Below are positions 6,968 through 45,573 of a DNA stretch of 64,000 nucleotides, piece after piece. A model generated the notes under the pieces. That model made no database searches, was not told the origin of the DNA, and worked only from the letters and a program-made list of their open reading frames with translations. The stretch spans positions 16,678,001 through 16,742,000 of the forward strand of contig CM038910.1 in assembly GCA_021904315.1 (NCBI GenBank), in the 5' to 3' direction. The stretch is from Sphagnum magellanicum. Its lineage: Eukaryota; Streptophyta; Sphagnopsida; Sphagnales; Sphagnaceae. A program made the position numbers and the translations under genes. How positions within the stretch are numbered: position 1 is the stretch's first letter; every line of letters starts with the position of its first letter.

Positions 6968-8833
6968 TTACATGGAAAGGATTTGGCCATCACTCCAAGT
7001 GAGAGGGAGCCGCATCTCATGAACCTTAGATTTGTCTCCAAAATTAAGACCTACAGCTTTCATCTCTATACTGCTGCGACCAAAGTACATGGAGACACTG
7101 ACTTCAGCTTTCGCATCTGTCCCTCCACTGACGTTAGAAATGTCTATCACCAACTCACCTTCCTTTTCAGCTGATCCTCCCTTTGTGTATCTTGGGGAGA
7201 CATCATCAGAGCTGTAGAGTGGGAGAGATGCTTCCTTCTGTTCAGGGTACAATGCCACAATCGTCTTGGTGACATAATGATCAACTGCTACCTGACTTCC
7301 CTTCTGCACATAAATCAAGAATCGGTTCTTGCACAGCTTCGTGTTACCTACCTGGTTACAGTACTCAGCAGGATCTCCTTCCTCAAAAGGTTCCTGGACC
7401 GCCACTCCATAGGTTTTTCTTGCAATTCTAGAAATGATTGCTCCAGGGTTCATTGCCAGCGCTACTGCACCCTGACAAACTGCACTTCCAGGATTCGGGG
7501 GACTAATTATCCGTTGAACCTCAGCAGCAAAGCTGTTCTTTATTCTTGTCATAAGGTAAGGGGAGCCTGCGAAACCACCTACCACCAACATGACCTTGAT
7601 GTCATGGGTCTGCGAGAGTTGTGCAGCAATTAGGTCAAGGTTCTCATTCACCACCGGATCGAAGATTGCTTTCATCTCTGAATGGGAAAGCTCAATTTCA
7701 TGATATGACTCACGTTCTGGTAATCCTTGCTCCCGCTCCCGATCCTCCCAGGCTCTTGCCAATTTGTGCGGGAGTTGAAGCTCTATGTCACCGCCAATGG
7801 TCGAAGGATCACCAAAAGTTCGCTTGATTTCCTCCCATCTTTTGAGCAAATCAGACTTATAGGCTGGGTTCTGCTCGAAATACTCCTGAAGACATCCGAT
7901 CTTCTGACACATGAATGTGATGAAGTTTTTGTCAATATACGTGCCCCCACAAAAGCCACCAGTGCTGCGTGTGACTTCTCTCACCCTGTAGCTATCATCA
8001 TCTCCCACCCATTCTTGAACAACTATGTCAGAGGTTCCTCCTCCAATGTCAACAACCAAAAGCTTATCACCCTTTTGGAGGTTCAGATGTTCGCTATTGC
8101 GATGGCAATGACAGGAGGCTGCCTCTGGCTCCAAAACCATGATGAGAGGATGTGGGCTCGCATATTGACGTTGCGATGATCCGTTTCGACCACCACCACC
8201 ACTACCCACTACAAGACCGGCATCAGCCATACACTGTCTCATCTTGCGCTTGGCACTGTCGCTCCAGATGGAAGGAACCGTGACACACCACTGTACTGAT
8301 TCCATGGAAAGCTGTTCCCCATAATGCGTCTGCAGATGTTCCATGATGAACCTGCCAATCTCTCGCAAGTAATCGCTGATGACTCGATTCACCGTCAGTC
8401 CCGGAGGATAGATGGTACCACTAAGGGACGCCGTTCCATCATCGCCACCCACCTGAAGAAGATCCAGCTTGAATCTCGTCAGATACGTGCCCAGAACCGG
8501 CACATCAACAGCAGCAGCTTGTTGCTGACGATGATCCCGCATCTTCCGCAGCAACCCACAGTCCTTCTCAAATTCAAGACGAGCCGGATATCCCCAAGAC
8601 TTGCACACGTACTGATCTTCGCCTCCTGCATGAGAAGAATCTACTGGTTTGTAGTAAATCCCGGTGATGGTTTTGCAGTAGGGTCTGGATGCTTTTGGCC
8701 AGTCGTAGAATGTGAAGATGTCCTTGGGCTTGAATTTGTGTGCGAAAGCATAACCAGAGTACGTGGTGCCGAAATCCAGTCCCACCACCACTCTCGCTCC
8801 TCCTCCTCCGGAAGCAGACTCCGCATGATCCAT
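6968..8833 (-). CDS. HSPA12-type atypical Hsp70, copy A1 (621 aa)
   Basis: Intronless, intact 621-residue protein of the actin/Hsp70 ATPase fold, HSPA12 branch. Visible motifs: phosphate-1 loop GLDFGTTYSGYAF (residues 18-30), phosphate-2 loop VVDIGGGTSDIVV (260-272), and the adenosine motif VVGGFAGSPYL (417-427). The last ~150 residues replace the canonical substrate-binding domain, and there is no EEVD tail (the end is DGQILSM). No signal peptide or membrane segment is seen, so it is probably cytosolic. The start is the ATG at 8833, shared by all four copies. A 50-bp duplication puts a second ATG 50 bases upstream, which opens only a 15-codon frame. The residues distinctive to this copy are AVQEP at 478-482 and EASLP at 534-538. 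Family assignment is strong; client and function in plants are unknown. Canonical Hsp70 is excluded by the divergent loops. Confidence 0.92.
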   Translation of the reverse strand: MDHAESASGGGGARVVVGLDFGTTYSGYAFAHKFKPKDIFTFYDWPKASRPYCKTITGIYYKPVDSSHAGGEDQYVCKSWGYPARLEFEKDCGLLRKMRDHRQQQAAAVDVPVLGTYLTRFKLDLLQVGGDDGTASLSGTIYPPGLTVNRVISDYLREIGRFIMEHLQTHYGEQLSMESVQWCVTVPSIWSDSAKRKMRQCMADAGLVVGSGGGGRNGSSQRQYASPHPLIMVLEPEAASCHCHRNSEHLNLQKGDKLLVVDIGGGTSDIVVQEWVGDDDSYRVREVTRSTGGFCGGTYIDKNFITFMCQKIGCLQEYFEQNPAYKSDLLKRWEEIKRTFGDPSTIGGDIELQLPHKLARAWEDREREQGLPERESYHEIELSHSEMKAIFDPVVNENLDLIAAQLSQTHDIKVMLVVGGFAGSPYLMTRIKNSFAAEVQRIISPPNPGSAVCQGAVALAMNPGAIISRIARKTYGVAVQEPFEEGDPAEYCNQVGNTKLCKNRFLIYVQKGSQVAVDHYVTKTIVALYPEQKEASLPLYSSDDVSPRYTKGGSAEKEGELVIDISNVSGGTDAKAEVSVSMYFGRSSIEMKAVGLNFGDKSKVHEMRLPLTWSDGQILSM

Positions 8834-9590
8834 TGTCACAATTCTCCTCCTCCTCCTCCGGAAGCAGACTCCGCATGATCCATTGTCACAATTCTCCTCC
8901 TCCTCCTCCTCCACATCCTCACCTTCAAAACAACAACTCCTGCAAACAAAGTCTCCGAACTTGCACTCTCCCAAAGGTTGCGGCTCCTGCACGACGATGA
9001 CTGCAGAAGCACAGAAACTCCAAACTACCCAAATTTACGACAAAACCTCAACTCAACAACCAAGTCTTACGATCACTCTCAATCGGTCAAGCAATCGATC
9101 ACAAAACCCTTTGTTCAAGAATTTCAGCAACCCAACAAAATCTTCATCAAAAAACTGGACAGGACGCAAGAGGTCTGTTGGGTACCGACAGTTCTGGAAC
9201 ACGGCCAATAGTAGCCTTTGAACTCTAGAACTCCAAAGAGGAACGAGCGAGCGAGCTGCTACTAGTTGTGCAAACGCATGAGCCACCTTTCTTCCCTACT
9301 CACAAGACTTGCTTGCTGTCTACACTGAGCAGCATCGGGCGTGCGTGCGTCATATGAAGGCGCCGGACATGCCACAAGAGTCCAAGAGAAATTGTGTGCA
9401 GAAGAAGAGGAAGAAGAAGAAGAAAACCGTAAAGCCTCGCGTTTCCGGGAAGGTCCTTACCGAGGATGAGTGGGCGACGAGAAAGCAAGATTCCGCGGTC
9501 GCATAGTCGCGCGTAAGAATCCTCGTACCACGCAAAACGAGGGACACGGACAGCGCGAAGAAAACAAACAAACCAAAATGAGGCATTTTG
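8834..9590 (-). promoter_or_regulatory. 5' leader and presumed promoter of HSPA12 copy A1
   Basis: About 750 bp upstream of A1 that is clearly richer in GC than the surrounding DNA and conserved next to all four genes. Just before the ATG lies a (GGA/AGG)n tract of copy-dependent length. No clear TATA box or canonical heat-shock element was found. A lysine-rich plus-strand frame at 9309-9506 is also present in the other copies; it may be chance or a divergent transcript. Confidence 0.45.
8836..8883 (-). other. Upstream ORF created by start-codon duplication in A1
   Basis: A 50-bp tandem duplication (roughly 8797-8846 and 8847-8896) repeats the start region of A1. The upstream ATG (8883) opens a frame of 15 codons, MDHAESASGGGGGEL, that stops two bases before the true ATG at 8833. 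The other three copies lack it. By general knowledge of uORFs it would be expected to reduce translation of A1; that effect is inference. Confidence 0.6.
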
Positions 9591-9599
9591 ATGATGAAA

Positions 9600-10140
9600 T
9601 TTAGTGGATGAGTTTTCTTGTTCTCTCTCTAGTACATGCTCTAGTTCTTCTCATCTTCACTTCCACGCACTTTTCTTCATCCAATATGCTTCTGCTTCCA
9701 AACATTCTTCGTCATTTTTACATTATCTTTACTTTCATCCAATTTCTTATGCTTTAAAACTCTTTCATCCTCTTCATTTTTCATCATTTTCACTCTCCCC
9801 AAAAACATTTGCTCGTCAACATGTTTACAACCTTCACCTTCACTTTCATCCTGTTTTTTTCCTTCTTTGTCCCCTCTTATTTTTCCGCTTGGGAACATGC
9901 TTGCTTTCTTCTCCATCATCTTGATTTCGAAATTAATTCCATCATTATATTTTTTCATCCAATATTTTTTTGGAAACAAACTTACCTTTTTCATCGTCTT
10001 CAATTTAAAATCATTTTCATCGTTCATTTTTTTCATCCAAATTGTTGGCTTCAAAACATGCTTCTTTTTTCCTCATCTTCATTTTTCATCATTATCATCA
10101 TTATCTTCATCGTCTTTATCCAATCTATTGTGTATCGGTA
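9600..10140. repeat. Pyrimidine-rich TTCATC-type low-complexity tract
   Basis: Degenerate repeats of TTCATC/TTCATT on the plus strand, upstream of A1. Shorter versions follow genes B1 (about 24430-24600), A2 (31270-31640) and B2 (46300-46470). The open frames over it are low-complexity by-products. Confidence 0.6.
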
Positions 10141-10828
10141 ACATCCCAGGATTGGGAGATTCCCATAAGGGCCCACCCAAGGCAGCGCGGAGGACCTTCT
10201 ATGGACTTCAGGAAAGCCCTTATTGTAAAAATGTCCAATTTGAGGCGATTACACCATAAAGATACCATAGACCTATTCAAAATAGGGAAGGTTTTGAAAA
10301 CAAACAAAATGATGCTTTACAAAATGGGGAACCTTTCCAAAAAAAAGTGTTCACTTGCTTTGCAAAGGAACAACTACACTCTATAGCAAAGCTTCCGTTA
10401 ACATTACAAATTAATAGCAAAGTTTTTATGATTTTGAAACATGTTTACCTGTTTCATCATCTTCATTTTGAAATCAATTTCAGCATTAGATTGAAGCTCC
10501 CTTGTTGTGAGACATCATGACACACCTTTGTAGACCTATTAAGTGTATTGCAGATGAACTTTTGATTCTACAAGATTGGAATTCTATAAACCTAGTGCAT
10601 ACTCCTTAGTTCTTCACTTTTAATACACCAAATGCAACAACTTTAATATGAATGATTACGATGGAGAAACATGCTTGACGTGCAACCGTGAATCATACCA
10701 ACTACACAAAGAAATAAAAATAGTCATTAATGCAACTTTAAGCCAAAATTAGATCAAAAATTGAGCACATATTTACAAAGACTCAACATTGACCCAAAAT
10801 CTCATAGGAAACACTACCTAATCTATTT

Positions 10829-11104
10829 CTTATGTCCCCATGGGGCAACATGCAACTGGTATTTTTTCAAAATTCTCAAATTCCTCATCTCATAAACCTT
10901 AAAATTGCATTTCATGAACCCTAGATTGCATCTCATGTTACAAGTTTGCCAAAGTGGTGTAGCAATTAAGTCAAGCCTCTCATTCACCACCAAATCCAAG
11001 TTCATTTTCATCCTTGAATGGGAAAACTCAATTTTTTCATATTTCTTGTGTCCCCATGGGGCTACATCCAAATGATATTTTTTTGAAAATTCTCAATTCC
11101 TCCC
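10829..11104. repeat. Direct repeats of about 58 bp flanking the HSPA12 relic
   Basis: The stretch at about 10829-10888 (with TGTCCCCATGGGGC and then a T-rich part) recurs at about 11046-11104 with few changes. The two copies bracket the HSPA12 relic at 10887-11046. Confidence 0.65.
10887..11046 (-). pseudogene. Degraded HSPA12 relic (fifth copy)
   Basis: Two non-adjacent parts of the HSPA12 gene are recognisable on the minus strand. Positions about 10940-11046 match residues about 377-412: the relic reads KIEFSHSRMKMNLDLVV where the genes read EIELSHSEMKAIFDPVV. Positions about 10887-10937 match the end of the gene around residues 597-610 (VHEMR), with that 21-bp piece repeated about three times. 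The roughly 185 codons between these parts are missing. The segment occurs only in duplication copy 1. It is a true pseudogene fragment, far more diverged than the four intact copies, so it is older. Confidence 0.8.
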
Positions 11105-12190
11105 ATGATCGAAACACATTGATGTCTTGCAACTTTTAAGCATCATAACCATTATGAAAGATATTTGTTTCAAACATTGGATGCCCTTATCTTATAATCA
11201 TCAAAAATTTCCAACATTTTGTCAAACTCTTCAATTAGACATGATTTATCATTCCAAATCCTATTTTGAATGGTTAAATTTTTTTTTGACATTTTTTTGG
11301 CATTACCTTTCAAAAAATCATCACTATTAAGATAAAAAAATTTCTAACAATTGAAGCCCACTATCTTCTAATTTTCATTTGGATATTTCAATTATATAAA
11401 GGTCAAGCAATTTCAACATGTTTTGAACATTCAAACCTCATTCTAGATACTTGAAACTTTGACAAAGTCTCAACTTTCATTTTCATAGTGCAATTGAAAG
11501 GGTCTTGGGAGTTTCCGGCCCATCTCTCTCACACAATTCCCACAGTGCACAAAGTTCCATTCACCTCATTTAATTTGTCCCATGCCCAAAGTTTGCTTTT
11601 ATTATGCCAAAACATGATAGCATCCATGATTAGAACGTTATGTCATTAATCATGTGTTCATGGGGGACATGTACTTGTGCATGTATGATTAGGACATTTT
11701 GTGATTTTAAGATCTTTTGTATTCCATTCTATTAGTATGTTTCATAGGACTTCAGTTTTTGTTTCAATTGTAGTGCATGTATTTTTTGTTTACTTCATGC
11801 AATTGAAAAGCATGTGTGAAACATGCCATTGCATCCTAATATTTAAATGTTCTTTTCATTTCAATCTAATTGTCATGAGGAGTTGAATAATTCATTTCAA
11901 GTCTCAAAAAACTATGTTGTTCAAATCAAGAATTACAATTCATATCACCCAACAAATTTACAAAATTGTAACCCAAGATTTAATGTTCATACTTTTTTTG
12001 TCGCACAAGTGTTCAAAATTCAATTAAGTAGTTCAATTTTTTTCTTTAACAACATCAACCATGCATGGTGCATTTTTAACCAAACTATAACTTGACATGT
12101 TTGTGTTGTCCTACACACTAATAGTTTATAATAAGAAAAGTTTCATGTTATTTACTTCAAAAACATTAGAAGAAATTTTGAAATATATGA
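11105..12190. other. AT-rich segment present only in copy 1
   Basis: This is the right part of the 2.2-kb block (about 9975-12190) that is absent from copy 2 at about 31637. I see no gene, RNA or recognisable transposon. The short frames here lack codon structure or family resemblance. Confidence 0.5.

Positions 12191-13010: not shown

Positions 13011-13018
<8 letters not shown>

Positions 13019-13046
<28 letters not shown>
13019..13046. repeat. (AT)n microsatellite
   Basis: About 28 bp of pure AT dinucleotides. The equivalent site in copy 2 (32536-32598) is more than twice as long. A second AT run lies at 14945-14971. Confidence 0.9.
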
Positions 13047-13049
<3 letters not shown>

Positions 13050-14937: not shown

Positions 14938-14977
<40 letters not shown>

Positions 14978-19790: not shown

Positions 19791-21843
19791 AATTAATCGT
19801 CCACATTAAAAATGTATCACTACTAGATTCTTGCCCTTTCCCATTATTATAAATACCATGTATCCATAATAACCAAGGCAACAAGTTCTATGTGTTATGC
19901 TACATGTGATCAACAATTATTTTGGTAAAACTTCACGCACTTGCAAATTAAGAAACAAAAATAATAATATTTTGCATGCACACACAAGTTCACAACCACA
20001 CACAAACATAGAAACACACATTACATACATGCATGAATGTTCTATCATTTATTACACCATTTTGATTACAATAGAATAATCTATGTCCACTTTGATGTCC
20101 ATGTCTTCATGTTCCATTGAATGGCTCTACTTTTTAGTTGATTAATATTCTCCTCCTTTGCCTTAGAACCAAACAACATAAATCATCACCACTATCTAGT
20201 CATCTAACACACTTTTCATCTCTCTCCCATAATTTCAAAACTCTACACCTAATCACATTCTTGCTTTTCCTCCTAGATTTCTCTACTTCAATTCCTCCCA
20301 TAATGCCCCCTATCTTGTCTTATAATGCCCTTTTCAACTCTTACCATCTCTAAATTTAGTTAAACAATTATAACTAACTATCATGTCAGCTATTTGGAGG
20401 TCGAAAGTTTTAGAGATTCATAACTTCTTCAAACAGATCTCGATTTGAACATTTTAAAGACTCATTCAATAGCCCTTGGAAAGAGCTTTCAAACACTATA
20501 TCAATCGTCTCAATCAAAGTTGATTCAACTTGTGAAATTGTCAAAAACATCTGTTGACTATCAATTACTATTGGTTACCCACATAGCTAGTTTGTATGTC
20601 TACCAGTTTGCATACTATTTGCCCATTTTCCTTTCTATTCCTTTTCCTAGTAATTTTCTTGCCTACCAAAGGGGTTTTGTTCCTAATGCTTACGACCTAT
20701 GTTCATGTTGAAGGGGTTCAGCTAGGTATGCTAAGTTGGGTAGTTAGGCTACCACCAATACCTAGGTACCTCCTTTTTCAACCTAGCTACCTACCTTTCT
20801 TGACCTACTTACCCTTATTTAAAACCTTTCTATTTACTCTATAATTTTATTTTTGAAAATAAATTCAAAAAATAAATTATCTTAATTTGAGTAGTTAAAT
20901 GATTCATTGCTTCATACGTCAAAATGACCACCCAATCACAATGGACATGTTAAAATCAACTTGTCCAAAGTGATGAAAGGTTTTTTTTATGGCCATTTAA
21001 ATGGGGACTATACACATTTAAATGACAATTCATTAGTGTCACCAAAAAAAAGGGGGCACCAAGGGTGTAATTTTAAAGGGGGTTTATTGTACTAAGCTAA
21101 ATGGTTTTGGTATCCATGTTACACATCAGCTTCTAGGAACTCCCTTGGGAAGACAGCTTCTCCATTGGACTACCAACCCAGACCAACAAAAATTTAAAAA
21201 ATTTAAAAAAAAAAACCCCACTTAACTCCACCTTTCTTCGGTGGTGGCCCTTGTCATTTAATGAAAATTCAATAAAATGAAAACTAATTTTTTCGGGGAA
21301 ATTCGGGTACTTTTGGTATTGTTGAAAAGCCCTTAACACATAGGATTTTAAGGAGGCGATTTTGTTAATGTCTAGGGCTAAGGTGTGAGATATAATGAAT
21401 TTTCTGTAATCTTTGTCCTTGGAAATTAAATAAGAATTCCAAAAGATCTAAACTCAAAATTTACCATTCACACTTCAACTCACAACATTGGCCACGGCTA
21501 GTAGTTTTAAACATACTTGCGTTTCAATTACCTCATCTACTTTCTGAAATTCTTTGCATGAAATATATTATGCAGTTCAATGCCATGTGTCTGCTATCAG
21601 CACTAGAATATACATCACAAAGCTGCTCAAACAAGATCCTGTTCACAGATGAGAAAACCCATCCAGAAGAATTTGTTCCTTTACACCTGAATCCAAAATT
21701 CCTGGTAGGGGAAAAAAAAATAGGGCTGAACAAACACAACACCTCAGAGAGCGGGTGGTATTGCAATTCATGGCAGACTCTCCAATCCCATGAGCATTGT
21801 TGGATTGTGAGTCTAAAACTGCAGAACAATCAGGCTACACACA

Positions 21844-23709
21844 TTACATGGAAAGGATTTGGCCATCACTCCAAGTGAGAGGGAGCCGCATCTCATGAAC
21901 CTTAGATTTGTCTCCAAAATTAAGACCTACAGCTTTCATCTCTATACTGCTGCGACCAAAGTACATGGAGACACTGACTTCAGCTATCGCATCTGTCCCT
22001 CCACTGACGTTAGAAATGTCTATCACCAACTCACCTTCCTTTTGAGCTGATCCTCCCTTTGTGTATCTTGGGGAGACATCATCAGAGCTGTAGAGTTCGA
22101 GGGGCATCGCCTTCTGTCTAGGGTACTGTGCCACAAGCGTTTTGGTGACACAATGATCAACTGCTACCTGACTTCCCTTCTGCACATAAATGGAGAATCG
22201 GTGCTTGCACTTCTTCGTGTTACCTACCTGGGTACAGTACTCAGCAGGATCTCCTTCCTCAAAATGTGGCAAGATCCTCACTCCATAGGTTTTTCTTGCA
22301 ATTCTAGAAATGATTGCTCCAGGGTTCATTGCCAGCGCTACTGCACCCTGACAAACTGCACTTCCAGGATTCGGGGGACTAATTATCCGTTGCACCTCAG
22401 CAGCAAAGCTGTTCTTTATTCTTGTCATAAGGTAAGGGGAGCCTGAGAAACCACCTACCACCACCATGACCTTGATGTCATGGGTCTGCGAGATTTGTGC
22501 AGCAATTAGGTCAAGGTTCTCATTCACCACCGGATCGAAGATTGCTTTCATCTCTGAATGGGAAAGCTCAATTTCATGATATGACTCACGTTCTAGTAAT
22601 CCTTGCTCCCGCTCCTGATCCTCCCAGGCTCTTGCCAATTTGTGCGGGAGTTGAAGCTCTGTGGGATCGCCAATGCTCAAAGGATCACCAAAACCTCGCT
22701 TCTTTTCCTCCCATGTTTTGAGCAATTCAGACATATAGGCTGGGTTCTGCTCGATATACTCAAGAAGACATCCGATCTTCTGAGACATGAATTTGATGAA
22801 GTTCCTGTCAACATACGTGCCCCCACAAAAGCCACCAGTGCTGCGTGTCACTTCTCTCACCCTGTAGCTATCATCATCTCCCACCCATTCTTGAACAACT
22901 ATGTCAGAGGTTCCTCCTCCAATGTCAACAACCAATAGCTTATCACCCTTTTGGAGGTTCAGATGTTCGCTATTGCGATGGCAATGACAGGAGGCTGCCT
23001 CTGGCTCCAAAACCATGATGAGAGGATGTGGGCTAGCATATGGACGTTGCGATGATCCGTTTGCACCACCACCACCACTACCCACTACAAGACCGGCATC
23101 AGCCATACACTGTTTCATCTTGCGCTTGGCACTGTCGCTCCAGATGGAAGGAACCGTGACACACCACTGTACTGATTCCATGGAAAGCTGTTCCCCATAA
23201 TGCGTCTGCAGACGTTCCATGATGAACCTGCCAATCTCTCGCAAGTAATCGCTGATGACTCGATTCACCGTCAGTCCCGGAGGATAGATGGTACCACTAG
23301 GGGACGCCGTTCCATCATCGCCACACACCTGAACAAGATCCAGCTTGAATCTCGTCAGATACGTGCCGAGAACCGGCACATCCACAGCAGCAGCTTGTTG
23401 CTGACGATGATCCCGCATCTTCTGCAGCAACCCACAGTCCTTCTCAAATTCAAGACGAGCCGGATATCCCCAAGACTTGCACACGTACTGATCTTCGCCT
23501 CCTGCATGAGAAGAACCTACTGGTTTGTAGTAAATCCCGGTGATGGTTTTGCAGTAGATTCCGGATGCTTTTGGCCAGTCGTAGAATGTGAAGATGTCCT
23601 TGGGCTTGGATTTGTGTGCGAAAGCATAACCAGAGTACGTGGTGCCGAAATCCAGTCCCACCACCACTCTCGCTCCTCCTCCTCCGGAAGCAGACTCCGC
23701 ATGATCCAT
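21844..23709 (-). CDS. HSPA12-type atypical Hsp70, copy B1 (621 aa)
   Basis: Intact, intronless and exactly as long as A1. The same three ATP-binding motifs are present, with GGFSGSPYL in the adenosine loop where the other copies have GGFAGSPYL. The start at 23709 is preferred because the frame upstream of it is closed in this copy, so the longer starts possible in A2 and B2 are not shared. Copy-specific residues are RILPH at 478-482, AMPLE at 534-538 and a distinct 336-350 patch (K336, G339, LS at 344-345, DPT at 348-350). Compared with A1, residues 316-353 carry 12 replaced codons and no silent-only change by my reading. It pairs with B2 at residues 65, 309, 319 and 326, but with A1 at 46, 68 and 88. 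Confidence 0.92.
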   Translation of the reverse strand: MDHAESASGGGGARVVVGLDFGTTYSGYAFAHKSKPKDIFTFYDWPKASGIYCKTITGIYYKPVGSSHAGGEDQYVCKSWGYPARLEFEKDCGLLQKMRDHRQQQAAAVDVPVLGTYLTRFKLDLVQVCGDDGTASPSGTIYPPGLTVNRVISDYLREIGRFIMERLQTHYGEQLSMESVQWCVTVPSIWSDSAKRKMKQCMADAGLVVGSGGGGANGSSQRPYASPHPLIMVLEPEAASCHCHRNSEHLNLQKGDKLLVVDIGGGTSDIVVQEWVGDDDSYRVREVTRSTGGFCGGTYVDRNFIKFMSQKIGCLLEYIEQNPAYMSELLKTWEEKKRGFGDPLSIGDPTELQLPHKLARAWEDQEREQGLLERESYHEIELSHSEMKAIFDPVVNENLDLIAAQISQTHDIKVMVVVGGFSGSPYLMTRIKNSFAAEVQRIISPPNPGSAVCQGAVALAMNPGAIISRIARKTYGVRILPHFEEGDPAEYCTQVGNTKKCKHRFSIYVQKGSQVAVDHCVTKTLVAQYPRQKAMPLELYSSDDVSPRYTKGGSAQKEGELVIDISNVSGGTDAIAEVSVSMYFGRSSIEMKAVGLNFGDKSKVHEMRLPLTWSDGQILSM

Positions 23710-24420
23710 TGTCACAGTTCTCCTCCTCCTCCTCCTCCTCCTCCTCGTCACCTTCTAAACAACAACTCCTGCAAACAAAGTCTCCGAACTTGCACTCTCC
23801 CAAAGGGTGCGGCTCTTGCACGACGATGACTGCAGAAGGACAGAAACTCCAAACTACCCAAGACCCAAATTTACCTCAAAACCTCAACTCGACAACCAAG
23901 TCTTACGATCACTCTCAATTGGTCAAGCAATCAATCACAAAACCCTTTCCTCAAGAAACTCAGCAACCCAACAAAATCTTCCTCATAAAAGTGGAGAGGA
24001 CGGAAGAGGTCTGTTGAGTACCGACAGTTCTGGAACACGGTCAATAGTAGCCTTTGAACTCTAGAACCCCAAAGATGAACGAGCCAGCGAGCTGCTACTA
24101 GTTGTGAAAACCCATGAGCCACCTTTCTTCCCAATTCACAAGACTTGCTTGCTGTCTACACTGAGCAGCATCGAGCGTGCGTGCGTCTTATCAAGGCGCC
24201 GGACATCCCACAAGAGTCCAAGAGAAATCGTTTGCAGAAGAAGAAGAAGAAAAAATCCGCAAAGTCTAGCGTTTCCAGGAAGGTCCTTACCGAGGACGAG
24301 TGGGCGACGAGAAAGAAAGATGCCGCGGTCGCACAGGCGCGTGTAAGAATCGTCCTACCACGGAAAACGAGGGACACCGACACCAGGAAGAAAACAAACA
24401 CACCAAAATGAGGCACGTTT
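23710..24420 (-). promoter_or_regulatory. 5' leader and presumed promoter of HSPA12 copy B1
   Basis: Conserved counterpart of 8834-9590, with a longer uninterrupted (CTC)n tract (on the plus strand) just upstream of the ATG. The lysine-rich plus-strand frame here is 24145-24411 and longer than in A1. No canonical promoter element is recognised. Confidence 0.45.
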
Positions 24421-27232: not shown

Positions 27233-28693
27233 GGATAATGTTAATGTTGCTTTGTGTGCAAATTGTGCAAACTAACAACAATGAATTCAGTTAAAAAGGG
27301 ATTAAATTTTAATTTTTTTAATGCAAACAAGCAAAAGAATGTGAACTTGCCAAGAAAACAGAAAATCTGAATTAAAAAAGTCTAATTGACAAATACACAA
27401 GCTAAAAGTTAAAAAACTCAGACTTAATGTAAATCATTACATTAAAACAAGAAGAAGTCACAACCTTCCTCAAGTCTAATAATGCATAGTAGAGCTTAGA
27501 ATAACCAATGTAAAATATTTAAATAATTGACACCTTTATTCCACCACAAATGGGTTGTTTTGTAAGATTTTTTTGGCCTATAATCACATTCTTGAAAGGG
27601 TTTACACAAAATGTGACTATACGTGTTTCAATCACAATTAATTAGTGTAACAAAAAACAAATAGGCACCAAGGCCGTAATTTTAAAAGGGGTTTACTCTA
27701 CTAAGCTAAATGGTTTTGGTATCCATGTTAGGCATCATCTTCTGGAAGTCCCTTGGGAAGATAACTTCAACATTGGACTACCGACCCAAACCAAAAACAT
27801 TTAAATAATAAATAAATAAATACCCCACCTAACTCCACCTTTGTTCGGTGGTGGCCCTTGTTGCACTGTATATACATTCCGTCTTCCAATAGAAGTGCAA
27901 GGAAGAATTCAAGGGATTCGTGCCTTGATATGTATCTATCAAGGAAGGTAGGTTGTTTGTCATGTTGAGATCCCCCAAATCACATTGCCCCGCCGTCCAT
28001 TGTGCCCTTCATACCATCAGAAAGTTCTCAAGAAATAAGTGTACATTAGAGAACTTCCCTAATGTTTGACCTATGGTGCAAGAGTTATTGAATATTGTAC
28101 CATTCTGTCATTGAAAATTCAATAAATTGAAGATTAATTTTTTGGGGGAAATCGAGGTGCTTTCGGTATTGTTGAAAAGCCCTCAATACATAGGATTTTA
28201 AGGAGGCGATTTTGTTAATGTTTAGGCGTAAGATGGGAGAGATATTGAATTTTTTGTAATCTTTGTCATTGGAAATTCAATGAAAATTCAAAAAGATCAA
28301 AACTCAAAATTTACCATTCACACTTGAACTAACAACATTGGCCATGTCTAGTAGTTTTAAACATACTTGCATTTCATTTCCCTCATCTACTCTATGAAAT
28401 TCTTTGCATGAAATATATTATGCAGTTGAATGCCCTGTGTCTGCTATCAGCACAAGAATATACATCACAAAGCTGCTCCAACAAGGTACGGTTCACAGAT
28501 GAGAAAACCCATCCAGAAGAGTTTGTTCCTTTACACCTGAATCCAAAATTCCTGGTAGGGGAAAAAAAAATAGGGCTGAACAAACGCAACACCTCAGAGA
28601 GCGAGTGGTATTGCAATTCATGGCAGACTCTCCAATCCCATGAGCATTGTTGGATTGTGAGTCTAAAACTGCAGAACAATCAGGCTACACACA
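27233..28693. other. Junction and 3' flank of HSPA12 gene A2
   Basis: It starts at the tandem duplication junction and is equivalent to 5764-6967. It is longer than that flank because it has about 225 bp at roughly 27878-28105 that A1 lacks. No gene is seen. Confidence 0.65.
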
Positions 28694-30559
28694 TTACATG
28701 GAAAGGATTTGGCCATCACTCCAAGTGAGGGGGAGCCGCATCTCATGAACCTTAGATTTGTCTCCAAAATTAAGACCTACAGCTTTCATCTCTATACTGC
28801 TGCAACCAAAGTACATGGAGACACTGACTCGAGCTATCGCATCTGTCCCTCCACCGACGTTAGAAATGTCTATCACCAACTCACCTTCCTTTTGAGCTGA
28901 TCCTCCCTTTGTGTATCTTGGGGAGACATCATCAGAGCTGTAGAGTACGAGGTGCATCACCTTCTGTCTAGGGTAATTTGCCACAAGCGTTTTGGTGACA
29001 CAATGATCAACTGCTACCTGACTTCCCTTCTGCACATAAATGCAGAATCGGTTCATGCACCTCTTCGTGTTACCTACCTGCTTACAGTACTCAGCAGGAT
29101 CTCCTTCCTCAAAACGTTGCCGGATACTCACTCCATAGGTTTTTCTGGCAATTCTAGAAATGATTGCTCCAGGGTTCATTGCCAGCGCTACTGCACCCTG
29201 ACAAACTGCACTTCCAGGATTCGGGGGACTAATTATCCGTTGAACCTCAGCTGCAAAGCTGTTCTTTATTCTTGCCATAAGGTAAGGGGAGCCTGCGAAA
29301 CCACCTACCACCAACATTACCTTGATGTCATGGGTCTGCGAGAGTTGTGCAGCAATTAGGTCAAGGTTCTCATTCACCACCGGATCGAAGATTGCTTTCA
29401 TCTCTGAATGGGAAAGCTCAATTTCATGATATGACTCACGTTCTGGTAATCCTTGCTCCCGCTCCCGATCCTCCCAGGCTCTTGCCAATTTGTGCGGGAG
29501 TTGAAGCTCTATGTCACCGCCAATGGTCGAAGGATCACCAAAAGTTCGCTTGATTTCCTCCCATGTTTTGAGCAATTGAGACTTATAGGCTGGGTTCTGC
29601 TCGAAATACTCGAGAAGACATCCGATCTTCTGACACATGAATGTGATGAAGTTCTTGTCAACATACGTGCCCCCACAAAAGCCACCAGTGCTGCGTGTAA
29701 CTTCTCTCACCCTGTAGCTATCATCATCTCCCACCCATTCTTGAACAACTATGTCAGATGTTCCTCCTCCAATGTCAACAACCAATAGCTTATCACCCTT
29801 TTGGAGGTTCAGATGTTCGCTATTGCGATGGTAATGACAGGAGGCTGCCTCTGGCTCCAAAACCATGATGAGAGGATGTGGGCTGGCATATCGACGTTGC
29901 GATGATCCGTTTGGACCACCACCACCACTACCCACTACAAGACCGGCATCAGCCATACACTGTTTCATCTTGCGCTTGGCACTGTCGCTCCAGATGGAAG
30001 GAACCGTGACACACCACTGTACTGATTCCATGGAAAGCTGTTCCCCATAATGCGTCTGCAGTTCTTCCATGATGAACCTGCCAATCTCTCGCAAGTAATC
30101 GCTGATGACTCGATTCACCGTCAGTCCCGGAGGATAGATGGTAGCACTAGGTGACGCCGTTCCATCATCGCCACCCAGCTCAATAAGATCCAGCTTGAAT
30201 CTCGTCAGATACGTGCCCAGAACCGGCACATCAACAGCTGCAGCTTGTTGCTGACGATGATCCCGCATCTTCCGCAGCAACCCACAGTCCTTCTCAAGTT
30301 CAAGGCGAGCCGGATATCCCCAAGACTTGCACACGTACTGATCTTCGCCTCCTGCATCAGAAGAATCTACCGGTTTGTAGTAAATCCCGGTGATGGTTTT
30401 GCAGTAGGGTCTGGATGCTTCTGCCCAGTCGTAGAATGTGAAGATGTCCTTGGGCTTGGATTTGTGTGCGAAAGCATAACCAGAGTACGTGGTGCCGAAA
30501 TCCAGTCCCACCACCACTCTCACTCCTCCTCCTCCGGAAGCAGACTCCGCATGATCCAT
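28694..30559 (-). CDS. HSPA12-type atypical Hsp70, copy A2 (621 aa)
   Basis: Intact, intronless counterpart of A1 in duplication copy 2, with identical length and ATP-site motifs. The frame is open upstream to 30688, giving a possible arginine-rich N-terminal extension, but the ATG at 30559 is the start conserved in all copies. It shares residues 316-350 almost exactly with A1 (differences Q316L, D328Q and R332T), as expected from the duplication. Its C-terminal patch is however unlike A1: SIRQR at 478-482, K493, R500, M502 and VMHLV at 534-538. It also carries unique V13, E166 and C586. Function is unknown beyond probable ATP-dependent binding. Confidence 0.92.
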   Translation of the reverse strand: MDHAESASGGGGVRVVVGLDFGTTYSGYAFAHKSKPKDIFTFYDWAEASRPYCKTITGIYYKPVDSSDAGGEDQYVCKSWGYPARLELEKDCGLLRKMRDHRQQQAAAVDVPVLGTYLTRFKLDLIELGGDDGTASPSATIYPPGLTVNRVISDYLREIGRFIMEELQTHYGEQLSMESVQWCVTVPSIWSDSAKRKMKQCMADAGLVVGSGGGGPNGSSQRRYASPHPLIMVLEPEAASCHYHRNSEHLNLQKGDKLLVVDIGGGTSDIVVQEWVGDDDSYRVREVTRSTGGFCGGTYVDKNFITFMCQKIGCLLEYFEQNPAYKSQLLKTWEEIKRTFGDPSTIGGDIELQLPHKLARAWEDREREQGLPERESYHEIELSHSEMKAIFDPVVNENLDLIAAQLSQTHDIKVMLVVGGFAGSPYLMARIKNSFAAEVQRIISPPNPGSAVCQGAVALAMNPGAIISRIARKTYGVSIRQRFEEGDPAEYCKQVGNTKRCMNRFCIYVQKGSQVAVDHCVTKTLVANYPRQKVMHLVLYSSDDVSPRYTKGGSAQKEGELVIDISNVGGGTDAIARVSVSMYFGCSSIEMKAVGLNFGDKSKVHEMRLPLTWSDGQILSM

Positions 30560-31260
30560 TGTCACAGTTCTCCTCCTCCTCCTCCTCCTCCTCGTCACCT
30601 TCAAAACAACAACTCCTGCAAACAAAGTCTCCGAACTTGGACTCTCCCAAAGGTTGCGGCTCTTGCACGACGATGACTGCAGAAACACAGAAACTCCAAA
30701 CTACCCAAATTTAGGACAAAACCTCAACTCAACAACCAAGTCTTACGATCACTCTCAATCGGTCAAGCAATCGATCACAAAACCCTTTGTTCAAGAAATT
30801 CAGCAACCCAACAAAATCTTCCTCAAAAAACTGGACAGGACGCAAGAGGTCTGTTGGGTACCGACAGTTCTGGATTACGGTCAATAGTAGCCTTTGAACT
30901 CTAGAACTCCAAGGATGAGCGAGCGAGCGAGCTGCTACTAGTTGTGCAAAGCCATGAGCCACCTTTCTTCCCTACTCACAAGACTTGCTTGCTGTCTACA
31001 CTGAGCAGCATCGGGCGTGCGTGCGTCTTATGAAGGCGCCGGACATGCCACAAGAGTCGAAGAGAAATTGTGTGCAGGAGAAGAAGAAGAAGAAAACCGG
31101 AAAGTCTAGCGTTTCCAGGAAGGTCGTTACCGAGGACGAGTGGGCGACGAAAAAGCAAGATACCGCGTTCGCATAGTCGCGCGTAAGAATCCTCGTACGA
31201 CGCAAAACGAGGGACACCGACACCACGAAGAAAACAAACAAACCAAAATGAGGCACTGTT
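30560..31260 (-). promoter_or_regulatory. 5' leader and presumed promoter of HSPA12 copy A2
   Basis: Conserved counterpart of 8834-9590, without the 50-bp start-codon duplication of A1. The plus-strand lysine-rich frame is 30985-31176. Confidence 0.45.
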
Positions 31261-32532: not shown

Positions 32533-32535
<3 letters not shown>

Positions 32536-32598: not shown

Positions 32599-32605
<7 letters not shown>

Positions 32606-32649
32606 TAAATATGATATATAAATTTAATTTTAATATTTTTAATTTGATT

Positions 32650-32681
<32 letters not shown>

Positions 32682-39600: not shown

Positions 39601-40597
39601 ACATACATGCATGAATGTTCTATCATTTATTACACCATTTTGATTACAATAGAATAATCTATGTCCACTTTGATGTCCATGTCTTCATGTTCCATTGAAT
39701 GGCTCTACTTTTTAGTTGACTAATATTCTCCTCCTTTGCCTTAGAACCAAACAACATAAATCATCACCACTATCTAGTCATCTAACACACTTTTCATCTC
39801 TCTCCCATAATTTCAAAACTCTACACCTAATCACATTCCTACTTTTCCTCCTACATTTCTCTACTTTAATTCCTCCCATAATGCCCCCTATCTTGTCTTA
39901 TAATGCCCTTTTGAACTCTTACCATCTCTAAATTTAGTTAAACAATTATAACTAACTATCATGTCAGCTATTTGGAGGTCGAAAGTTTTAGAGACTCATA
40001 ACTTCTTCAAACAGATCTCGATTTGAACATTTTAAAGACTCATTCTATAGCCCTTGGAAAGAGCTTTCAAACACTATATCAATCGTCTCAATCAAAGTTG
40101 ATTCAACTTGTGAAATTGTCAAAAACATCTGTTGACTATCAATTACTGTTGGTTACCCACAAAGCTAGTTTGTACGTCTACCAATTTGCATACTATTTGC
40201 CCGTTTGCCTTTCTATTCCTTTTCCTAGTAATTTTCTTCCCTACCAAAGGGGTTTAGTTCCTAATACTTACGACCTATGTTCATATTGAAGGGGTTATGT
40301 TAGGTGTGTTAAGTTGGGTAGCTAGGCTACCACCAATACCTAGGTACCTCCTTTTTCAACCTAGCTACCTACCTTTCTTGACCTACTTACACTTATTTAA
40401 TACCTTTCTACTTACTCTATAATTTTATTTTTGAAAATAAAATTAAAAATAAAATATTTTAATTTGAGTAGTTAAATGATTCATTGCTTCATAAGTCAAA
40501 ATGACCAATCAAAATGACCACCCAATCACAATGGACATGTTAAAATCAACTTGTCCAAAGTGATGAAAGGTTTTTTTTATCACCATTTAAATGGGGT

Positions 40598-42483
40598 CCC
40601 TTTTTTTACTAAAATTTTTGGTCAAAGAAACTTGATTTTCTACAAGGGTTTTATATGTAAGGATGGATGAATCCCACATAATCAAGAATGTGCATAATGG
40701 AAAATTGAAATGTAGGAGGTTGTAGGAAAGGTGTTAAGGCCCTACATTTGCAAAAGGGTTGAAAACTTTAAATCTTGTCCCTACAAATTTTTTTCATTTT
40801 TGTAAATGTAACATGCTTTGCCATCATTGCAAAGAGAGTTAACATGAGTGGAATTGAACCCATAAATGATTTAGCTTTAATGATGACAAGTTTTGTGAAA
40901 ACTATCAAAATAATTAAAAAACTAGTAAAAAAAATTATCTTAAACAATAAAAATTTAACACAACTTCCTTTCTAATCAAATGCAACCCAAGACACTTTAA
41001 ACTTCATGTTGGAGCATAAGTGGTGAATTTGAGATTTAGACTCTTATTGTGGTGGGTGTGGCTCCTAGCCATTGGTAAAATTTTGCACCAATTTGCTAGA
41101 AGAAAAAATGTTGCTAATGCAATAACATTAATGGGAACCAAGCAAGTGTAAGAAGTGTTTTTTTTTTCCATGTTTTAATGTCAAAAATAATACTAATGTT
41201 ACAAGTTTTTAATATGTTTACATCATAAAGTTTCTAATGTCTTTTTAAGAGAATCATGTATAAAACAATTTCAAATGAATTTAATGAGTATGAAGTACTA
41301 AAAGTATTTTTAAAACATTGTAACTAGTATTTTTTATGGTTTTTTCATTTAAAAAAGATTTGAAGTCCTTTCAAAATGATATGACACCAAAACCCCAAAA
41401 CCTCAAAACTTTAATCCTAAAATGTAAACCCTAAACCTAAACCTTTCAAATTAACCATTTAAAAATAAACTTTAAACCCTAGCTTAAAATATAAACCTTA
41501 AAACAAAATTCCTAAAAAAACATTTAAAAGATAACCCCTAAAACCCAAACTAAAAAAATAATAATTGAAAATTAACCCCTAATTAAACAAAACCCTAAAA
41601 CTAAAATTTTCAAACACAAAATTATAGACCTTACACCTAAAACAATGCAATAGCCCTAGAACTTCTAAATACTTGTGATCTCTACACCTAACTACAATAG
41701 CGGTCAATTCCCTTAAAGTTCAAATTGGTCTTCTATTCGTCCTTAGTTTGAAGATTTCATCCTCAATTGAGCTAATTTTAAACCACTAAAAAATATGGCA
41801 TAAAATAATAAATAATGAGTTAAATAGGATTGTAATCAAGTGTTAGTTTTGAAAATAACTTTCTAAAAAATACTTGTAAAGTGGTTCTAGCTAAGAACCT
41901 ACATGGCTAGTTTAGTGAAAACTAGTGGCAAGACCCAAAATTGGAATTGGTAGTTTTGAACTACATAAAGATAGGTGACAAAACTGAAGAAAACCTTTTC
42001 AACTCAAGGTCAAACTAATTTGGTAAGTAGGTGGGTAGGTACCTTAGGTAGGTCTTTGATTGAAGTAGGTAGACCTCTTAGGTAGGCACAAGGTCTCTAG
42101 GTATATTAAAAGAAAGAAAACATAATCATAATTTTGGAGACCTCATCCTACTAGTTTTGGGTTCCAGTTTGGAAGACTTTAAAGATAGCTACAAAGTGGG
42201 GGTGAGATGGCCAAGGGAGGATGAAAAGGGGTGTAAAATTGGACGTCAGTTTATTGATATGATTAATATATGTGCCTTTATAATCATGCCCATTTTAGTC
42301 ACATTCTTGTTTTGGCACACATTTTTCTGGTAACCATCTATTTTAGTAAGAAACACCATTCGTTATAATCATTATCACACTCCATAATAACACAAAATAT
42401 TTGCAAAGCTTTCCTTGTAAATGTGACCATAATGGGGAGAATCTATGGCAAATATTAAGATTTTGTAAATTGTAATTTTTTTC
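40598..42483. other. Spacer segment present only in copy 2
   Basis: Together with the first 380 bp of the B2 unit this forms the 2.27 kb that is missing at about 21008 in copy 1. AT-rich, with TAGGTA motif clusters around 42020-42110. No gene is supported; the 66-residue frame at 40775-40975 has no recognisable features. Confidence 0.6.
41395..41660. repeat. Degenerate CCCTAAA-rich, telomere-like tract
   Basis: Many variants of AACCCTAAA, ACCCCTAAA and AAACCTAAACC are scattered over about 265 bp. They recall the plant telomere repeat (TTTAGGG on the other strand) but are never in long perfect runs. Confidence 0.45.
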
Positions 42484-43707
42484 GATAATGTTTATGTTGC
42501 TTTGTGTTCACATTTTGCAAACTAATAACAATGAATTTAGTTGAAACGGGATTTAAATTTTCTTTTCACAATGCAAATAAGCAAAAGAATGTGAACTTAC
42601 CAAGAAAACAGAATATCTTAATTAAAAAAATCTAGTTGAAAAATACACAACCTAATAGTTAAAAAGCTCAAACTTAATGTAAATCATTACATTAAAACAA
42701 GTAAAAATCATAACCTTCTTCAAGTCTAATAATGCATAGTAGAGCTTAAAATAAGCCATGTAAAAAATTTAAATAATTGACACCTTTATTTTAACAAAAA
42801 TGACTTGTTTCGTCAGATTTTTTTTTTCCCTATAATCACAATCTCATAGGGGTTTATACAAAATGCGACTATACACATTTAAATGACAATTCATTAGTGT
42901 CACAAAAAAAAAAGGGGGCACCAAGGGTGTAATTTTAAAGGCGGTTTATTGTACTAAGCTAAATGGTTTTGGTATCCATGTTAGACATCATCTTCTAGGA
43001 ACTCCCTTGCGAAGATAGCTTCTCCATTGGACTACCAACCCAAACCAACAAAAATTTAAAAAATTTTAAAAAAAAATACCCCACTTAACTCCACCTTTCT
43101 TCGGTGGTGGCCCCTGTCATTTAATGAAAATTCAACAAAATGAAAACTAATTTTTTGGGGGAAATTGGGGTACTTTTGGTATTGTTGAAAAGCCCTCAAC
43201 ACATAGGATTTTAAGGAGGTGATTTTGTTAATGTCTAGGGCTAAGGTGTGAGATATAATGAATTTTCTGTAATCTTTGTCATTGGAAATTCAGTAAAAAT
43301 CCCAAAACATCTAAACTCAAAATTTACAATTCACCCTTGAACTCACAAACATTGGCCATGGCTAGTAGTTTTAAACATACTTGCGTTTCAATTACCTCAT
43401 CCACTTTCTGAAATTCTTTGCATGAAATATATTATGCAGTTCAATGCCTTGTGTCTGCTATCAGCACTACAATATACATCACAAAGCTGCTCCAACAACG
43501 TCCTGTTCACAGATGAGAAAACCCATCCAGAAGAGTTTGTTCCTTTACACCTGAATCCAAAATTCCTGGTAGGGGAAAAAACAATAGTGCTGAACAAACA
43601 CAACACCTCAGACAGCGAGTGGTATTGCAATTCATGGCAGTCTCTCCAATCCCATGAGCATTGTTGGATCGTGAGTCTAAAACTGCAGAATAATCAGGCT
43701 ACACACA

Positions 43708-45573
43708 TTACATGGAAAGGATTTGGCCATCACTCCAAGTGAGAGGCAGCCGCATCTCATGAACCTTAGATTTGTCTCCAAAATTAAGACCTACAGCTTT
43801 CATCTCTATACTGCTGCGACCAAAGTACATGGAGACACTGACTTCAGCTAGCGCATCTCTCCCTCCACTGACGTTAGAAATGTCTATCAGCAACTTACCT
43901 TCCTTTACAGCTGATCCTCCCTCTGTGTATCTTGGGGAGACATCATCAGAGCTGTAGAGTTCGAGGGGTAGATACTTCTGTCTAGGGTACAATGCCGGAT
44001 GCATCTTCGTGACACAATGATCAACTGCTACCTGACTTCCCTTCTTCACATAAATGGAGAATCGGTTATCGCACATCTTCCTGTTACCTACCTGGTTACA
44101 GTACTCAGCAGGATCTCCTTTCTCAAAAGGTATCTGGACCCCCACTCCATAGGTTTTTCTGGCAATTCTAGAAATGATTGCTCCAGGGTTCATTGCCAGC
44201 GCTACTGCACCCTGACAAACTGCACTTCCAGGATTCGGGGGACTAATTATCCGTTGAACCTCAGCAGCAAAGCTGTTCTTTATTCTTGTCATAAGGTAAG
44301 GGGAGCCTGCGAAACCACCTACCACCAACATGACCTTGATGTCATGGGTCTGCGAGAGTTGTGCAGCAATTAGGTCAAGGTTCTCATTCACCACCGGATC
44401 GAAGATTGCTTTCATCTCTGAATGGGAAAGCTCAATTTCATGATATGACTCACGTTCTGGTAATCCTTGCTCCCGCTCCTGATCCTCCCAGGCTCTTGCC
44501 AATTTGTGCGGGAGTTGAAGCTCTATTAAATCGCCAATCGTCAAAACATCACCAAAAGTTCGCTTGTTTTCCTCCCATCTTCTGAGCAAATCAGACATAT
44601 AGGCTGGGTTCTGCTGGATATACTCCTGAAGACATCCGATCTTCTGAGACATGAATGTGATGAAGTTCTTGTCAACATACGTGCCCCCACAAAAGCCACC
44701 AGTGCTGCGCGTCACTTCTCTCACCCTGTAGCTATCATCATCTCCCACCCATTCTTGAACAACTATGTCAGAGGTTCCTCCTCCAATGTCAACAACCAAT
44801 AGCTTATCACCCTTTTGGAGGTTCAGATGTTCGCTATTGCGATGGCAATGACAGGAGGCTGCCTCTGGCTCCAAAACCATGATAAGAGGATGTGGGCTAG
44901 CATAGTGACGTTGTGATGATCCATTTGGACCACCACCACCACTACCCACTACAAGACCGGCATCAGCCATACACTGTTTCATCTTGCGCTTGGCACTGTC
45001 GCTCCAGATGGAAGGAACCGTGACACACCACTGTACTGACTCCATGGAAAGCTGTTCCCCATAATGCGTCTGCAGATGTTCCATGATGAACCTGCCAATC
45101 TCTCGCAAGTAATCGCTGATGACTCGATTCACCGTCAGTCCCGGAGGATAGATGATACCACTAGGGGACGCCGTTCCATCATCGCCACCCCCCTGAACAA
45201 GATCCAGCTTGAATCGAGTCAGATACGTGCCGAGAACAGGCACATCCACAGGAGGAGCTTGTTGCTGACGATGATCCCGCATCTTCCGCAGCAACCCACA
45301 GTCCTTCTCAAGTTCAAGGCGAGCCGGATATCCCCAAGACTTGCACACGTACTGATCTTCGCCTCCTGCATCAGAAGAACCTACTGGTTTGTAGTAAATC
45401 CCGGTGATGGTTTTGCAGTAGGTTCCGGATGCTTTTGCCCAGTCGTAGAATGTGAAGATGTCCTTGGGCTTGGATTTGTGTGCGAAAGCATAACCAGAGT
45501 ACGTGGTGCCGAAATCCAGTCCCACCACCACTCTCGCTCCTCCTCCTCCGGAAGCAGACTCCGCATGATCCAT
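43708..45573 (-). CDS. HSPA12-type atypical Hsp70, copy B2 (621 aa)
   Basis: Intact, intronless counterpart of B1, with all ATP-site motifs conserved. Copy-specific residues include GVQIP at 478-482, YLPLE at 534-538, R498, M500, D502 and MHP at 524-526. At residues 316-350 it is closer to B1 (I319, M326). At 479-482, 493 and 528 it resembles A1, giving a mosaic pattern. PP replaces AA at 107-108. The start at 45573 is chosen by conservation although the frame is open to 45705. Confidence 0.92.
   Translation of the reverse strand: MDHAESASGGGGARVVVGLDFGTTYSGYAFAHKSKPKDIFTFYDWAKASGTYCKTITGIYYKPVGSSDAGGEDQYVCKSWGYPARLELEKDCGLLRKMRDHRQQQAPPVDVPVLGTYLTRFKLDLVQGGGDDGTASPSGIIYPPGLTVNRVISDYLREIGRFIMEHLQTHYGEQLSMESVQWCVTVPSIWSDSAKRKMKQCMADAGLVVGSGGGGPNGSSQRHYASPHPLIMVLEPEAASCHCHRNSEHLNLQKGDKLLVVDIGGGTSDIVVQEWVGDDDSYRVREVTRSTGGFCGGTYVDKNFITFMSQKIGCLQEYIQQNPAYMSDLLRRWEENKRTFGDVLTIGDLIELQLPHKLARAWEDQEREQGLPERESYHEIELSHSEMKAIFDPVVNENLDLIAAQLSQTHDIKVMLVVGGFAGSPYLMTRIKNSFAAEVQRIISPPNPGSAVCQGAVALAMNPGAIISRIARKTYGVGVQIPFEKGDPAEYCNQVGNRKMCDNRFSIYVKKGSQVAVDHCVTKMHPALYPRQKYLPLELYSSDDVSPRYTEGGSAVKEGKLLIDISNVSGGRDALAEVSVSMYFGRSSIEMKAVGLNFGDKSKVHEMRLPLTWSDGQILSM

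Follow-up and report, generated by a model that had tools for sequence, protein, structure and literature searches.

An array of Hsp70-like ATPase genes in the peat moss Sphagnum magellanicum with C-terminal patches that have probably diverged under selection

A stretch of 64,000 nucleotides of the Sphagnum magellanicum genome (C4:16,678,001-16,742,000, the window in what follows) carries four nearly identical genes of a family of young, tandemly duplicating Hsp70-like (HSPA12-like) ATPases. Two short stretches in the C-terminal part of the encoded proteins have been replaced faster than the adjacent noncoding DNA has changed, and very probably they are the target of diversifying selection. 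Recognition in defence appears to be the likeliest role of the family, and we propose it tentatively. An earlier note on this DNA had described four genes of equal length; all four frames, encoding 621 residues each, are open over exactly the following coordinates:

6968..8833, minus strand: G1, 621-residue Hsp70-like (HSPA12-like) gene, single open frame (frame list, codon comparison, PF00012 scan, genome search)
21844..23709, minus strand: G2, 621-residue copy (frame list, codon comparison, PF00012 scan, genome search)
28694..30559, minus strand: G3, 621-residue copy (frame list, codon comparison, genome search)
43708..45573, minus strand: G4, 621-residue copy (frame list, codon comparison, genome search)

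The genome searched comprised 438,994,042 bases in 31 contigs, and G1 as query gave 46 matches. The array to which the window genes belong spans about 190 kb (C4 16.53-16.73 Mb) and holds eight intact copies of 618-629 residues, loci L002-L009. L002, L008, L003 and L009 are G1, G2, G3 and G4, and the other four intact copies lie outside the window. Over 612 codons the proteins are 90-93% identical among the window copies and 90-94% identical among all eight.

The differences between copies are concentrated in a few places. A recount for G1 and G2 (A1 and B1 in the earlier note) returned the figures reported there, with 12 replaced and 0 silent-only codons in residues 316-353 and 17 replaced and 1 silent-only in residues 466-540. 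Among the eight copies replacements occur at 118 of the 612 codons, and another 42 differ only silently. The replaced codons cluster: the densest window of 15 codons holds 11, compared with a mean of 7.4 after shuffling (p 0.0006), and the densest window of 30 codons holds 15 (p 0.017). Silent-only codons showed no clustering in windows of 15 or 30 codons (p 0.88 and 0.98). Sites with four or five different residues among the eight copies are 478, 480, 481, 482, 500, 502, 506, 528, 534, 536 and 538; two more, 223 and 575, lie outside the patches. In codons 524-538 replacements affect 11 of 15 codons and silent-only changes none. The two C-terminal patches, 44 codons in all, lie as follows in the window genes (eight-copy codon comparison, site models and ratio to flank divergence):

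7316..7402, minus strand: G1 codons 478-506, first C-terminal hypervariable patch
7220..7264, minus strand: G1 codons 524-538, second C-terminal hypervariable patch
22192..22278, minus strand: G2 codons 478-506
22096..22140, minus strand: G2 codons 524-538
29042..29128, minus strand: G3 codons 478-506
28946..28990, minus strand: G3 codons 524-538
44056..44142, minus strand: G4 codons 478-506
43960..44004, minus strand: G4 codons 524-538

The four units have noncoding flanks in common on both sides of the genes:

6386..6907; 21262-21783; 28112-28633; 43125-43647, no strand assigned: downstream flank common to the four units
8894..9314; 23723-24150; 30570-30990; 45587-46007, no strand assigned: upstream flank common to the four units

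The units are therefore duplicated blocks, and the flanks can serve as a neutral yardstick. We compared the replacement divergence (pN) of the C-terminal patches with the divergence of the 600 bases upstream, with bootstrapping over codons and flank positions. In the window copies pN was 0.221 and upstream divergence 0.058, a ratio of 3.84 (2.45-5.67). Since the patches had been defined from the window genes, the four outside copies provide an independent test; there pN was 0.183 against 0.053 upstream, a ratio of 3.46 (confidence interval (CI) 2.06-5.29). Outside the patches the ratio was 0.41-0.44. The replacement rate in the C-terminal patches is locally above the neutral rate, measured with a yardstick that itself varies between 0.04 and 0.11 per 100 bases over 700 bases upstream and between 0.05 and 0.07 in the first 300 bases downstream. 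Farther downstream the eight copies diverge more (0.13-0.27), which probably reflects the ends of the duplicated blocks. The 23 most variable sites are also poorly conserved in five dispersed relatives of the family, with an identity of 0.29 there and of 0.57 at sites drawn at random (none of 500 draws was as low), from which it follows that the C-terminal positions were changeable in the older family as well.

A third patch, codons 316-350, gave a different result. It varies among the window copies and was not confirmed in the four outside copies (codon comparison and ratio to flank divergence; for G1 also an alignment with DnaK):

7784..7888, minus strand: G1 codons 316-350, lobe IIB patch
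22660..22764, minus strand: G2 codons 316-350
29510..29614, minus strand: G3 codons 316-350
44524..44628, minus strand: G4 codons 316-350

When the three patches are taken together, 23 of 79 codons are replaced among the outside copies, compared with 49 of 533 elsewhere (Fisher p 4.7e-6).

The selection signal was also examined with custom-written site models. Twice the log-likelihood difference (2dlnL) between models M2a and M1a was 113 on the four window copies and 174 on the eight copies, and between M8 and M8a it was 173 on the eight copies. With separate trees for three regions, 2dlnL was 19.8 for codons 1-299, 25.9 for 300-465 and 97.8 for 466-612. Simulation demonstrated that recombination invalidates the usual chi-square p-values, which we have therefore set aside. 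In 23 simulated data sets with recombination and no positive selection 2dlnL ranged from 4.8 to 43.1, so that the observed 174 is four times the largest simulated value; the simulations used three region trees only, leaving finer recombination uncovered, and trees from FastTree for the simulated sets versus an IQ-TREE tree for the real data. The values for codons 1-299 and 300-465 are of a size reachable by recombination alone and are not safe to attribute to selection.

Relaxed constraint, a mutational hot spot or gene conversion from diverged paralogues might have produced the patches without selection. The inflation of the likelihood ratio by recombination speaks for such neutral causes, and so do two features of the codon data, which count against selection. 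The silent divergence (pS, Nei-Gojobori) is about 0.09-0.10 in the C-terminal patches and 0.04 elsewhere, largely owing to multiply hit codons. The 316-350 patch does not replicate, its ratio to flank divergence being 2.68 in the window copies and 0.69 (CI 0.11-1.58) in the outside copies; it resembles a pair of main haplotypes more than a site that is hypervariable throughout. On the other hand, relaxation predicts a replacement rate equal to that of the flank, and the observed rate is 3.5 times as high. Silent-only codons are not raised in the C-terminal patches either (2 of 21 non-replaced codons, compared with 40 of 473 elsewhere), a check that the earlier note had proposed, and the observed likelihood ratio lies far beyond the simulated range. 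We consider neutral causes very unlikely. The proposal of diversifying selection in the earlier note is well supported for the C-terminal patches and more weakly for the 316-350 patch.

The array shows tandem birth and death. One copy (L011/L018) is still open and carries an internal duplication of about 80 residues; another (L010) contains a stop, a third (L012) loses its frame after 534 residues, and L024 is a fragment of 125 residues. L005, L012 and L024 are oriented opposite to the remaining copies. Dispersed relatives occur on C10 (71% and 57% identity) and C15 (66%, 61% and 55%), and broken relatives on C15 and C11. The copies clearly recombine: local site incompatibility among them was 0.41 compared with 0.50, and none of 2000 permutations gave a value as low. 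The C-terminal modules are reshuffled, so that 'EP' at 481-482 is paired with SLP, RLV or PLR at 536-538, depending on the copy. Codons 613-621 exist as two tails, TWSDGQILSM in G1-G4 and L011 and TFGGVLE in L004-L007. The C10 relative L013 ends in TFGGVLQ, and the window-type tail is therefore probably the derived one. L006 and L013 also have C-terminal patch letters in common (ETCR; KTH.GLYP.QK.MRLVL), though G1 and the C10 gene agree in no more than 71% of residues. These could be either an old variant that was kept or a copy transferred between chromosomes.

The array proteins belong to the Hsp70 superfamily by their sequence. Both copies scanned matched PF00012 over residues 254-458 with 33.7 and 43.5 bits (cut-off 20.6), and the ATP motifs GLDFGTTYSG, VDIGGGT[SA]D and VVGGF are present in all eight intact copies. 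A scan of an array copy against NCBIfam produced only partial matches far below the cut-offs, mostly to DnaK and HscA. The proteins terminate with ILSM or GVLE some 160 residues past the ATPase domain, and the canonical C-terminal lid and EEVD tail are absent; in sequence terms they are not canonical Hsp70 chaperones. HSPA12A and HSPA12B, the atypical Hsp70s of vertebrates, are likewise divergent ATPases of this superfamily that have no lid or EEVD tail, and the C-terminal part of the array proteins may be similar to that of HSPA12. The name 'HSPA12-type' used in the earlier note presumably expresses such a likeness. No HSPA12 model was among the matches of the Pfam and NCBIfam scans, and no HSPA12 chain was among those of the PDB searches. 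In vertebrate HSPA12 an element of 86 residues stands in place of the HSPA1A segment 168-192, and homologues were found only in vertebrates among the genomes examined in that study, according to the part of it used here (PMC2266713). At the inferred placement of this element the moss proteins have only about 20 residues (between LEPEAAS and VVDIGGG), and the element appears to be absent; what stands of the name is membership of the superfamily by profile match. The moss genes further differ from HSPA12A and HSPA12B in their single open frame, their tandem arrangement and their diversifying C-terminus.

In a local alignment of residues 182-456 with DnaK, lobe II starts at about residue 254, and residues 316-337 lie opposite DnaK residues of about 249-270, a region which we take to be subdomain IIB. 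In the C-terminal part hydrophobic residues take turns with the variable ones. Of these hydrophobic residues 477 V, 483 F, 505 F and 537 L are the same in all eight copies and 539 (L/F) is nearly invariant, a pattern that would suit exposed strand faces and loops. A placement of the patches on the peptide-holding loops of the DnaK substrate-binding domain, made by eye, was unsupported by profile comparison.

A family of this kind could consist of stress chaperones whose C-terminal variants handle different clients under desiccation, acid or heat, without any recognition of non-self. The intact ATP motifs agree with this, and Hsp70 expansions are usually interpreted as stress adaptation in the portions of the literature drawn on here, for instance in P. 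patens and in intertidal animals. We nevertheless regard it as unlikely: a three-unit heat shock element was absent within 1 kb upstream of all nine genes examined, and adaptation to clients would not usually make the same sites change faster than noncoding DNA. It also leaves unexplained why the same domain is fused to a kinase module that has relatives beside NB-ARC exons.

This fusion occurs in a second cluster, on contig C11:

C11:12.47-12.71 Mb: fusion cluster of five loci (L019, L021, L022, L023, L026), Hsp70-like ATPase domain + DUF1221-like stretch + protein kinase

The five frames compared encode 850-894 residues, with the Hsp70-like domain directly before the DUF1221-like stretch and the kinase after it. 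The Hsp70-like domain is 43-50% identical to G1 in the genome search, and the C-terminal domain of the array proteins is absent. In the four frames scanned the kinase was matched with E-values of 3e-31 to 6e-34 from profile position 3 or 4 to 168-178, which is the first two thirds of the profile. The last third, with a DVYSYG-type motif, follows just over 100 bases downstream in another frame at all seven loci examined, and this shift fits an intron. The N-terminal four-helix domain of Pm13 is also named HeLo or DUF1221, as in MLKL proteins, and proteins carrying it regulate cell death; Pm13 falls in the MLKL_NTD-kinase cluster, apart from the DUF1221-kinase cluster, in the portion of the report consulted (PMC10951266). 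The C11 fusions resemble these plant MLKL or Pm13-type proteins (PMC10951266) in having a DUF1221-like stretch followed by a protein kinase, and differ from them by an additional N-terminal, degenerate Hsp70-like ATPase domain and by a DUF1221 score below the cut-off.

The ATP motifs of the C11 proteins are degenerate: GLHLGTT stands in all five, the second phosphate motif reads NIGYDTT, NIRYDTT or NIGYHTT, and VVGGF is absent. Among the five frames pN/pS values were 0.070/0.066 in lobe I/IIA, 0.271/0.146 in the segment equivalent to IIB, 0.131/0.122 in the end of the ATPase domain, 0.067/0.119 in the DUF1221-like part and 0.068/0.124 in the kinase. Replacements are in excess only in the IIB-equivalent segment, which has length changes and an uncertain alignment, and to some degree where the ATPase domain ends; lobe I/IIA does not outpace the kinase. 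The IIB-equivalent segment overlaps the variable 316-350 patch of the window genes and also borders on it. Such rates would suit a signalling part under constraint that carries a surface acting as sensor or bait.

The Hsp70-like proteins could also be targets or decoys. Pathogen effectors may bind the variable faces, in which case the variation would be escape and the C11 fusions would be integrated decoys. An Hsp70-like part devoid of ATP motifs agrees with this, as does an IIB-equivalent segment with length changes, a pN of 0.271 and a ratio of 1.86, compared with 0.068 and 0.55 in the kinase. No effector is known, the alignment of the segment is uncertain, and receptors would account at least equally well for tandem birth and death and for the shuffling of modules, for which reasons we think a target or decoy function quite unlikely.

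The kinase module has many relatives. With the non-Hsp70 half of L021 as query at least 111 matches were found in the genome, on contigs up to C19; 107 of 871 candidates were scored in the kinase-module search and 125 of 380 in the NB-ARC search. Stand-alone relatives of the module occur on C14 and C5, the long ones 53-57% identical to it. Two relatives on C6 pass the DUF1221 cut-off (28.0 and 29.8 bits) and are 35-37% identical to the fusion query over the DUF1221-like part and the kinase. Four relatives on C1 lie 4.2-4.7 kb, start to start, from NB-ARC matches. One of these regions is arranged as follows:

G000:C1:3671800-3681700 (L065), one strand: kinase exon (581-residue frame), then NB-ARC + winged-helix frame, then long leucine-rich repeat (LRR) frame

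The kinase relative at this locus is 33% identical to the C11 module, and the three frames may be spliced together. In the LRR frame very regular repeats follow one another.

It is mainly this company kept by the relatives of the family, a kinase module and NB-ARC and LRR exons, that makes us favour recognition in defence. The immune or allorecognition function suggested in the earlier note receives indirect support from it. The ATPase core would be conserved while the C-terminal stretches 478-506 and 524-538 are driven apart between copies and reshuffled by recombination. Each copy would then present a different C-terminal contact face to a pathogen-derived or modified host protein; ATP binding would switch the protein between states, and a kinase partner would read the state. 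We infer that the patches form the face that binds, that a pathogen supplies the ligand, and that the array proteins act with kinases of the C11 or a related type. A further step would be to regard the family as a previously unrecognised class of intracellular immune receptor in plants, with an Hsp70-type ATPase switch in place of NB-ARC, the array members as sensors whose hypervariable C-terminal domain is exchanged among copies, and the C11 proteins as the signalling half, their inactive Hsp70-like sensor being connected to a HeLo-type stretch and a kinase. We put this forward as a rather doubtful possibility.

Several observations weigh against recognition in defence. The array lies next to neither the fusions nor a match of the kinase module or NB-ARC among the candidates scored (107 of 871 for the module and 125 of 380 for NB-ARC). 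In the four C11 frames scanned DUF1221 scored 14.1-19.8 bits, short of the cut-off of 25. For L051 and L053, two stand-alone relatives, the kinase was matched and DUF1221 was not, and the kinase exon at L065 gave no DUF1221 match. In the C11 fusions the pN of lobe I/IIA (0.070) equals that of the kinase half, and pS is low there (0.066 versus 0.12), which is what brings pN/pS to 1.07; a ratio near 1 together with dead ATP motifs may be relaxation in a dead ATPase. In the array genes pN/pS outside the patches is 0.60, a sign of only moderate constraint, and the raised pS of the C-terminal patches and the lack of replication of the 316-350 patch count here too. The structural comparisons gave no help. 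AlphaFold on the four near-identical window proteins returned a mean predicted local distance difference test score (pLDDT) of 30 and a predicted template modelling score (pTM) of 0.23. In hhalign the C-terminal family profile matched DnaK 384-507 no better than 60 shuffled profiles did, and a PDB profile search with the C-terminal profile (the last ~150 residues) gave no matches.

Self/non-self or mating recognition within the species, rather than defence against pathogens, would also be fitted by the diversity per copy and by the shuffling. Fungal allorecognition with HeLo-type cell death offers a parallel. We know of no fusion barrier in peat mosses, and we judge this alternative highly improbable.

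In its mode of evolution the array behaves like a diversifying family of nucleotide-binding LRR receptors (NLRs). Arrays of plant NLRs, including the kinase-NLRs of mosses, show tandem birth and death, recombination, a localised excess of replacements and a nucleotide-binding switch, as described in the part of the source used (PMC11218826), and in the moss genome NB-ARC and LRR exons follow a relative of the C11 kinase module. The switch of the array proteins is of the actin/Hsp70 type, unlike that of NLRs, and their variable part is a short C-terminal domain rather than LRR repeats; no NLR domain was found in the array proteins, and the link to NLRs is the kinase module of the C11 relatives. 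HSPA12 genes have a share in the Hsp70 expansions of invertebrates. Bivalves and other invertebrates resemble the moss in their large lineage-specific expansions of Hsp70-type genes; these are interpreted as stress adaptation, and no patch-wise diversifying selection is described in the consulted portion of that account (PMC8910992).

Recognition inside plant cells is attributed mainly to NB-ARC receptors. If our interpretation is right, a diversifying Hsp70-type family with relatives fused to NLR/MLKL-type kinases would give plant immunity a second kind of nucleotide switch, and it could help to explain the expansion of atypical Hsp70s in sessile organisms. The array supplies specific codons and genes for direct testing in peat moss. 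Among the papers listed in searches of the open-licence literature of PubMed Central we found no reports of HSPA12-like plant genes under diversifying selection or of Hsp70-kinase fusions in moss, and the available text of an Hsp70 survey of P. patens contains no occurrence of HSPA12.

Outside this genome, prokaryote contigs scanned with query A1 and viral contigs scanned with A1 and A3 gave no relatives, and query A3 found three weak relatives in prokaryote contigs. A frame of 930 codons in a metagenome-assembled genome of Pirellulaceae (L059:1052-3844) joins a Ser/Thr kinase to a DnaK-like protein; by eye it appears to be an independent bacterial kinase-Hsp70 fusion.

The duplicated unit in the window contains one further feature, recognised by eye:

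10823..11092, minus strand: relict like residues ~375-413, some 2 kb upstream of G1 and belonging to the duplicated unit

Four other array copies have comparable relicts some 2 kb upstream, found as search matches at C4:16537862, 16569940, 16647308 and 16665120. Adjoining G1, window positions 62-4804 on the plus strand hold pieces of a long terminal repeat (LTR) retroelement, gypsy-like by eye, with zinc knuckle, reverse transcriptase and integrase frames, and a frame resembling it by eye lies close to the truncated array copy L024. Antisense open frames of 184, 209 and 209 codons cover the 5' part of G1, G2 and G4 (8324-8878, 23200-23829 and 45064-45693, plus strand) and are probably a by-product of codon use.

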